NCBI RefSeq assembly: GCF_011745365.1
Contig: NW_024468920.1
Location: forward strand, 1 to 64,000
Source: Cryphonectria parasitica EP155
Taxonomy: Eukaryota > Ascomycota > Sordariomycetes > Diaporthales > Cryphonectriaceae
Reading direction: 5' to 3'
Length of the DNA: 64,000 nt
Below, piece after piece: positions 47,401 through 48,797 of the stretch. The position numbers were made by a program, and so were the translations under genes. The notes beneath the pieces were generated by a model, which was given only the letters and a program-made list of their open reading frames with translations, ran no database searches and was not told where the DNA came from. Position 1 is the stretch's first letter. The number at the start of each line of letters is the position of its first letter.

Positions 47401-48092
47401 TTAATCAGAAACAGAATAACTGGGTTAATCTGTTGCTCTTTATACAGTTCGCTTATAATAGTGCAGATACAAGTATAATAAAGAAATTATTATTCTTTGT
47501 ACTCTATGAATACAATTCAATAGCTTATTATGAAGTATTACTAGAAGCAGATGCAGAAGCTGCAGATAAAAGAGTTAAGAAGATCAAGAAAGTTTAGCAA
47601 GAACTTTGATTAAAACTATAATTTATTTAGGAATAAATAGTATGATATGCAAATTCCAAAAGGATTGAGAAATTAATTCTACAGAAGAGAGATAAGATTT
47701 ATCTACTTCGAAAAAACATCAAAATAATCAAACTTAGCAATAAACTCAACTATAAGAAGTTAGAACTATTTAAAATCTTATAATAAATCTTCTCAATTAA
47801 TTACAAATTAGTATTATTTTATAAGATAAGAATATATCTGATTTTCCATATCTTACTGCTGGAATCAGCAGTACAGGAAATACTAACAAACAATACAATA
47901 GAAGTGGAAAATAATGAATTAGAGTATAAAATAGAGAAGATTCTCAAGCATAGAAGTACAAATAGCATAAGGGAATATCTCATTAAATGGAAAGGCTACC
48001 CAGCGAGCGAAAACTCTTGAGAACTGCAGAAAAACGTTAAAAATGCTTAGAAAAAGGTAGCTGAATATTGGAAAAGAAAAGCTAGCATCTAA
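44376..48092 (+). pseudogene. pol: pol relic of element J (PR-RT-RH-IN-chromodomain)
   Basis: 1239 codons in one frame (-1 to gag), from after TAA 44373-44375 to TAA 48090-48092. RT about 45450-46040, YxDD at 45867-45878 = YFNN. RNase H about 46250-46640. Integrase: zinc-binding region about 46860-46970; core piece 47097-47282 open (VVICRLSKYAYFLSYKESS...ISNRNRKF). The chromodomain about 47925-48089 is the best preserved: EKILKHRS...EYLIKWKGYPASENS, with the Trp-Lys-Gly-Tyr signature intact. Stops and Asp-to-Asn changes abolish function. Confidence 0.9.
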
Positions 48093-48797
48093 GACAATTG
48101 CTCCGCCCCGAACCGAAACTCAGAAGCCTCGGGAATCTTACTCTCCAGGAAACCCAACTAATCCATCACTGCATTCCCTACATCTACGGAATTCCAGTTA
48201 AAACCTCCAGAGGAAGGACTCTCAGGAGCAACAACAGGCTCCGCGGAAACTACAGCCTGCATCTCAGCAGCTACGCGCTCGCACTCCTCCTCCTCCAGGC
48301 TCTCGTTTACCAGTTTTATCCCCTTTTCCTGAAGAAAGCGTTATTGCTTCTTCAGGCGGAATAAGCAACTCAAAGATTCCAATAAACAGGCTTAAGCATC
48401 AGCTAACTCTTGTTGATGCTTCAGCAGACGCTCCTCTTTCTCCACCTCTCTACTATTCAGACAAACCAGCTCATCAGTAATGCAGAACACTGAGAAAGTG
48501 CTATCAGGAAAAGTGCGCAAGGAAAGAAAGCAGTTGGGGAAACTTACAGGAAGAAACGGGAATCCAACCAGCATCATACGAACAGCCTCGCTTCATACAC
48601 TGAGAACAGCTTTTTACCCCATCTATCATCTTACACTGCACCTCTTCCTCTAAACAAAAAGAATACAGCATAATCTCGTAACCAGTGGATTTGATATATG
48701 AAAAACGCTCGAGATAATAAAGATGCAATTGCAACAAACCAGAAGAAGCAGAAGAAGATTTCTTTGTAATACGAGAATTGAGGATTCTATTCAACAT
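48089..48797 (-). pseudogene. Accessory gene of element J, opposite strand, spliced (Cys-rich + coiled coil)
   Basis: The clearest copy. Exon 1 runs from ATG 48797 to 48548; the frame stays open upstream to at least 48824. A 58-nt intron occupies 48547-48490. Exon 2 runs 48489-48089 and ends TAG, overlapping the pol TAA by 2 bp. Joined, 217 codons in frame. Exon 1 has MLNRILNS and Cys at about 48, 55, 64 and 67 (FCLEEEVQC...SCSQC). Exon 2 starts ITDELVCLN, then an acidic/basic coiled-coil-like stretch (EVEKEERLLKHQQEL, FRLKKQ), an Ala/Val-rich part and GGFNWNSVDVGNAV. Only three internal stops, all explicable by RIP. No known function; possibly a regulator or host-factor mimic (speculative). 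Confidence 0.75.
48490..48547 (-). other. Predicted spliceosomal intron in accessory gene of J
   Basis: On the minus strand: 5' GTAAGT, branch-point-like CTGAT about 15 nt before the end, 3' TTTCTCAG; 58 nt, a typical fungal intron. Removing it joins TCTTCCT to TGTTCTGC and brings exon 1 into the frame that ends at the conserved stop. A plus-sense retrotransposon RNA would not splice this intron because it is on the opposite strand, so it can persist through reverse transcription. Confidence 0.72.

Follow-up and report, generated by a model that had tools for sequence, protein, structure and literature searches.

Antisense genes of long terminal repeat (LTR) elements are described as long retained and of unknown function in PMC7264820. 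The closest described case is brtn, the antisense gene of the Boty-like elements of Botrytis cinerea (PMC8365987, PMC7264820), the gag-pol of which bears a CHROMO domain (PMC4227169). As cited by others, Zhao et al. (2011) reported brtn in Boty of both Botrytis cinerea and Sclerotinia sclerotiorum, and PMC5987419 records a transcript of Monilinia with similarity to Pol and BRTN. Antisense accessory open reading frames (ORFs) of plants include Grande gene23, RIRE2 and Retand TRP28 (PMC7264820, PMC11963269), and HBZ of HTLV-1 is described as having a nuclear role and an antisense promoter in the 3′ LTR (PMC11963269, PMC7264820). Here we describe an antisense gene at 48089..48797 on the minus strand of the first 64,000 nucleotides of contig NW_024468920.1 of Cryphonectria parasitica EP155 (the window). 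We interpret it as a real accessory gene of a Ty3/gypsy chromovirus family, the product of which would be a transcription regulator, and give this interpretation a probability of roughly 0.55.

Like brtn, the window gene belongs to an element with a chromodomain-bearing gag-pol and runs antisense in the interval from pol to the 3′ LTR. In contrast, the passages cited on brtn mention no zinc cluster, intron or stop overlap, and the two were compared by description only. None of the 20 hits of a protein search named Botrytis; five came without an organism, and scoring was limited to candidates with exact words in common. Because brtn of Boty is known, an antisense gene beside a chromodomain pol is a known kind of gene. 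This answers a doubt raised in the initial annotation, made from the letters of the window alone, as to whether such a gene had been described for a fungal chromovirus. The architecture, the predicted intron and the proposed cassette exchange described below appear to be new: among the papers listed in literature searches, no title or opening of an abstract describes a zinc cluster, an intron or cassette exchange in such genes, which is weak evidence as most subscription papers lie outside the coverage.

The plant ORFs share the antisense position between pol and the 3′ LTR, the retention in most copies and a suspected nuclear or DNA-binding role. Retand differs in being a non-chromovirus, and the passages cited on the plant ORFs mention no zinc cluster; the TRP28 (transposase 28) domain was absent from Pfam scans of the decayed copy and the family proteins (25 families shown in the last scan). 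HBZ is a bZIP protein encoded by a spliced RNA. It resembles the window gene in its antisense location near the 3′ LTR and, in traits that for the window gene are only proposed or predicted, in being a nuclear regulator with a dimer-forming helix and in splicing. The differences are the bZIP build as opposed to a Cys cluster, the lack of any visible sequence kinship and the action of HBZ in human cells; the bZIP family was absent from three of the Pfam scans of the family proteins.

The antisense gene, its host element and its predicted intron

The antisense frame opens with ATG (48797) and closes with TAG, and represents a decayed protein gene. It is placed on the strand opposite to gag-pol, between the end of pol and the 3′ LTR. 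The element itself is a Ty3/gypsy chromovirus by its pol-end chromodomain and its LTR pair. The antisense gene and pol meet tail to tail and their stop codons overlap by 2 bp within CTAA, the antisense TAG being sense CTA 48089-48091 and the pol stop TAA being 48090-48092. Coordinates, strand and overlap are exactly as first annotated. This copy is dead, mutated by repeat-induced point mutation (RIP). The features are as follows.

48548..48797, minus strand: exon 1, 250 nt, with the N-terminal region and the Cys cluster in decayed form, homologous to the family proteins P0004, P0012 and P0020
48490..48547, minus strand: predicted 58-nt intron with donor GTAAGT, branch-like TCCTGAT and acceptor CAG
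48089..48489, minus strand: exon 2 (long helix, a probable coiled coil; acidic-aromatic C-terminal tail; TAG end)
48089..48092, both strands: CTAA overlap of the antisense stop and the pol stop
47925..48077, plus strand: C-terminal chromodomain of pol (Pfam PF00385, above cut-off at 47.1 bits), with 2 internal stops
48802..48848, minus strand: candidate signals of an intron in the 5′ untranslated region (5′UTR), donor GTAAGT at 48848-48843 and branch-like CTAAT at 48806-48802, acceptor unsettled
48876..48885, plus strand: purine-rich run immediately upstream of the 3′ LTR, by eye a polypurine tract
about 48889..49348, plus strand: 3′ LTR of the element (LTR pair 89.5% identical)
about 41838..42300, plus strand: 5′ LTR of the element

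Without splicing, the frame of the window gene breaks down after residue 83. Removal of 48547-48490 yields a reading of 651 nt, or 217 codons including the final stop, in which three internal stops remain. Plain decay as the cause of the frame break was ruled out by splice signals that agree with the annotated relative P0006, whose residues 1-71 and 72-136 are separated by 57 nt in the genome at the same junction. The P0005 protein shows this exon junction as well.

The signals were followed through the C. parasitica EP155 genome (43.8 Mb, 17 contigs) in 33 distinct copies, which were left after 20 duplicates of the same places had been removed from 53 fetched loci. The donor begins with GT in 21 of these copies and with AT, the RIP product of GT, in the other 12, and the acceptor is YAG in 30/33 and TAA in 3/33. 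Donors matching GTRAGY were found in 17/33 copies, or in 23/33 when the RIP change of G to A is allowed. By eye, a branch-like word lies shortly upstream of the acceptor, and the interior of the intron varies in length and letters among copies. A second GTAAGT about 50 nt upstream of the ATG (26/33 copies) and a CTAAT word (33/33) may be part of a 5′UTR intron whose acceptor is unsettled; in that case the start of the RNA would fall in or at the 3′ LTR. The overlap word, read antisense, is TTAG in 31 of the 33 copies and TTAA in one, and one copy could not be aligned there.

As RIP yields transitions only, we used transversions for counting. A column was counted when a transversion class was carried by at least two copies, over 213 codons in the 33 copies. 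Such columns number 20/18/46 at codon positions 1/2/3, and both exons contribute, with 9/10/21 in exon 1 (Fisher p 0.009) and 11/8/25 in exon 2 (Fisher p 0.001); owing to the shared history of the copies, neither the columns nor the p values can be taken as wholly independent. Such columns make up 16 of 51 in the intron and 5 of 52 in the 5′ leader. As a control, the pol tail gave 6/0/2 columns at sense positions 3/2/1 over 132 codons, which is too few for comparison. Exon frame is kept too: in 32/33 copies any difference in length from the reference is a multiple of three for either exon, the sole exception (L031) being a copy that cannot be aligned at the stop. Stop-free exons occur in five of the 33 copies, and 74 of the 86 exon stops in the set fall at the 12 reference codons (of 213) that RIP can convert to stops, with 12 elsewhere. 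Because of the RIP-type stops, the third-position transversions in both exons and the kept exon frame, we conclude that the antisense frame was, on this sequence record, a selected gene. The coding ancestor proposed in the initial annotation is thereby borne out. Homologous open frames were also looked for in less mutated relatives and were found, one of them being a Cytospora mali protein; in four copies with less mutation they span 246, 233, 237 and 208 codons, lengths reached by 1, 0, 0 and 2 of 500 dinucleotide shuffles, respectively.

Build of the predicted protein

The spacing C-x2-C-x6-C-x8-C-x2-C-x6-C is exact in 10 of the 22 family proteins, several of the others being fragments or cysteine-mutated. 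Gal4-type Zn(2)Cys(6) clusters are spaced C-x2-C-x6-C-x(5-12)-C-x2-C-x(6-8)-C, a pattern that the six cysteines of the family fit. The intronless P0019 differs, with C-x2-C-x8-C-x9-C-x2-C-x7-C. One protein, P0022, is linked to the family at E 2.9e-5 and fits the strict zinc-cluster pattern; its top two sequence matches in the PDB are PPR1 (E 0.11) and GAL4 (E 0.71). Searching PDB chains with the family profile gave 11 weak matches, among them the Gal4-type LAC9 chain 1cld (E 1.4), which we do not count as proof. PF00172, the Pfam family of these factors, was listed for 2 of the 17 members of the family alignment (A2) at E up to 10.

AlphaFold2 modelled P0006 (17 sequences) as a single helix over residues 69-179, with a mean pLDDT of 77.7 and block means of 96-98 over residues 81-130. 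Exon 1 of a related copy (L052; 15 sequences) was modelled with short helices at each CxxC (34-39 and 53-57) and a block mean pLDDT of 88-92 over residues 11-60. The Cys-rich cluster followed by a probable coiled coil, as originally proposed for the window gene, is supported by the six-Cys spacing and the long modelled helix. Heptad power was equalled by 18 of 2000 shuffles for P0001, 56 for P0012 and 92 for P0019. The C-terminal tail has a net charge of -5 to -11 and 1-5 aromatics in 9 of 10 proteins; in P0013 the motif search landed elsewhere.

No family was above cut-off in Pfam scans of the decayed copy, three frames from the loci L051 and L052 and 19 of the 22 proteins (without P0014-P0016), nor in NCBIfam scans of six sequences. 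A fold search of the long model in BFVD gave nothing of weight, and there was no VIA match among five chains for the exon 1 model. Judging from the six cysteines in Zn(2)Cys(6) spacing, the long helix and the usually acidic tail, the product is most likely a nuclear DNA-binding regulator.

Kinds of the gene and their distribution

AT-rich and mutated by RIP, the window is a nest of elements in which eight pol ends with a chromodomain lie in both orientations. GC-richer stretches lie between elements at 37645-38228 and 53714-54829, and contain internal direct repeats that are 82-87% alike. An antisense gene faces seven of the eight chromodomain matches, whereas no antisense partner was detected beside the one at 34201-34494 (minus strand). 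The seven genes, one of them truncated at the window end, are of two kinds: three are of the intron-bearing kind of the window gene (22.6-23.3, 48.1-48.8 and 52.2-52.9 kb) and four resemble the intronless P0019 (18.4-19.0, 24.4-25.0, 61.0-61.5 and 63.5-64.0 kb). The initial annotation was right to see an antisense gene across the family, but it missed the two kinds and the predicted 58-nt intron. Besides the gene described above, the window holds:

18443..19009, minus strand: P0019-like intronless kind, in a closely related element spanning 12147 to about 19567
22623..23297, minus strand: window-gene kind
24382..24993, plus strand: P0019-like kind, element in reverse orientation
52211..52911, minus strand: window-gene kind
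60954..61550, minus strand: P0019-like kind
63535..63960, minus strand: P0019-like kind, truncated by the window end

The element at 41838-49348, which carries the intron kind, and that at 12147-19567, which carries the P0019-like kind, align up to 48292/18604 (82%) and again from 48771/18992 (77%), with no match between these points (word-7 search, E 1e-5). The unaligned gap covers the Cys cluster together with the front half of exon 2. We compared seven further loci, namely L051 (window kind), L052 and L054 (P0006 kind), and L055-L057 and L058 (P0019-like). Between kinds both flanks are 69-90% identical, and 13 of 14 pairs are without a DNA match in the middle; only L051 against L054 shows one, of 117 bases at 70%. 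Within kinds, L052 and L054 align throughout save for an insertion in L054, and L055-L057 align throughout with one another. L058, the P0019 locus, has no middle match to L055-L057 either, which makes at least two cassettes within the P0019-like kind. On these alignments, the 5′ leader and the tail are the common property of the kinds, and the front has either been exchanged or evolves much faster. Recombination would be the source of the cassette difference.

Genome-wide, a DNA search gave 48 matches, exon 1 gave 71 and exon 2 of a relative at least 150 among 323 candidates, some of these matches being pieces of one gene. Chromodomains were scored in at least 150 of 408 candidates. Among the 150 exon 2 matches listed, 79 lie within 2 kb of a scored chromodomain, and all 79 pairs are convergent, with gaps of 42-79 bp (median 66), in good agreement with the tail-to-tail arrangement first described for the window. 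Hand-picked matches near the remaining chromodomains added 23 pairs, again all convergent, two of them at 380 bp and seen through exon 1 only. An antisense partner was thus found for 102 of the 150 listed chromodomains and none for 48. Two of the partnerless ones were read and proved to be a host CHD-like remodeller (by eye) and another chromovirus. The former (L060, G000:C5:3307300-3309300) is by eye a CHD-like chromodomain remodelling ATPase; a chromodomain match is not always a retroelement.

Outside this genome, the Cytospora mali homologue P0012 is 75% identical to P0001 and carries the UniRef name 'Zn(2)-C6 fungal-type domain-containing'. Further homologues are the JGI proteins P0001, P0011, P0018 and P0021, P0002 (source 'lgn') and P0022 (an ENA contig); all of these are known from the proteins alone. 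P0001 is labelled 'predicted anti-sigma-YlaC factor YlaD' though it is a homologue of an antisense retroelement gene, probably a misannotation. Scans of viral contigs with P0012 and P0018 and one scan of prokaryote contigs with P0012 gave no relative, as expected for a fungal element.

The other chromovirus (L059, G000:C5:1324700-1326600) also has a predicted antisense gene, at 508-1437 of that locus (minus strand) and about 160 bp past the pol stop. Its element was found at three near-identical places, and its first antisense exon has 31 genomic matches. Its four predicted exons, once joined, form a single open frame that contains KRKR and KRKK runs and has its cysteines spaced C-x2-C-x11-C-x9-C-x2-C-x6-C. 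Exon placement is by eye, and a non-standard donor (GTGCGC) occurs among the three, which makes this model less sure. A Pfam scan of the antisense pieces listed no family at E up to 1. The two chromoviruses are probably unrelated, to judge by the lack of similarity between their antisense genes.

A proposed regulator and the alternatives

If the product is a transcription regulator, an antisense RNA would begin in or beside the 3′ LTR and then be spliced, and the spliced RNA would yield a protein of about 215 residues. The protein would bind zinc through its six cysteines, pair through the long helix and enter the nucleus, where the acidic-aromatic tail would control either LTR-driven transcription of the element or the expression of host genes at the level of transcription. 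The likeness to Gal4-type Zn(2)Cys(6) factors lies in the Cys spacing and in the order of zinc cluster, helix and acidic tail; usual Gal4-type members are much larger. Tentatively, we extend the idea to fungal chromoviruses at large, which may carry antisense Gal4-like regulators made from spliced RNAs that begin at the 3′ LTR, swap the DNA-binding and pairing cassette between elements by recombination and keep a shared activating tail. This would be a counterpart of the HBZ strategy that has possibly arisen in at least two unrelated chromovirus families.

Several observations weigh against the regulator. No member reaches the Pfam cut-off of PF00172 (21 bits), the scores being 16.5 for P0022, 11.6 for P0012 and 7.4 for P0018. 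The PROSITE-like zinc-cluster pattern calls for basic residues between the second and third Cys, and of 11 six-Cys proteins only P0022 has these recognition residues. Because of these two differences from Gal4-type factors, membership in the zinc-cluster family is unproven. Foldseek found no match in the PDB for either model, a small zinc domain and one long helix giving fold-search programs little to match. Heptad periodicity is weak in P0006 (equalled by 419 of 2000 shuffles), and a few residues of the modelled P0006 probably stem from an annotation that runs across an insertion of some 300 bases. In 8/33 copies the donor has T at its third base instead of the usual purine. Finally, the codon bias is a sign of a coding past, not of function.

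A place for the protein in the particle or pre-integration complex, as a zinc-dependent RNA or DNA chaperone or an integrase targeting factor, would account for the position of its gene next to the chromodomain end of pol. Nucleocapsids also carry Cys clusters. Such functions of antisense accessory proteins are discussed in PMC7264820. We consider this unlikely, as the six-Cys spacing and the helices at each CxxC suit a binuclear zinc cluster better than a CCHC knuckle and the acidic tail is ill-suited to a nucleic-acid chaperone. Restraint of the element, either through the protein (copy-number control, for example by blocking element proteins) or through antisense RNA that feeds RNA silencing with the protein in a minor part, seems quite improbable to us. 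Double-stranded RNA could result if transcripts antisense to the 3′ end of pol are made, a point also raised in PMC7264820, but the coding parts overlap by 2 bp only, though the RNA may extend further. Moreover, a role of the RNA alone requires neither protein-level selection in both exons nor conserved splice signals.

Capture or insertion of a host gene, or of one from another element, that is now an idle passenger is strongly disfavoured. The predicted introns would suit such an origin, and zinc-cluster proteins are abundant in fungi. Against it stand the selection signal, the fixed distance to 79 chromodomains (102 of the 150 listed when hand-matched pairs are included) and the kinds with different middles, which share their flanks and have all been retained as genes. 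A chance open frame opposite a GC-richer non-coding region has next to nothing left in its favour. Long frames come more easily in the four less mutated copies tested, which are 48-55% GC, and one or two shuffles did attain the observed length in two of them; homologues elsewhere, the conserved intron, the kept frame, the codon-position bias and the RIP-type stops contradict it, and the homologues together with the splice pattern refute it.

With its regulator-like build, its conserved splice signals, a natural cassette series and at least 150 matches in the genome, the gene makes the regulator idea testable by simple assays. Spliced antisense genes hide in RIP-rich fungal regions, where an annotation guided solely by gag-pol can overlook them. 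Some fungal database proteins that are called 'Zn(2)-C6' or hypothetical may be genes of retroelements.
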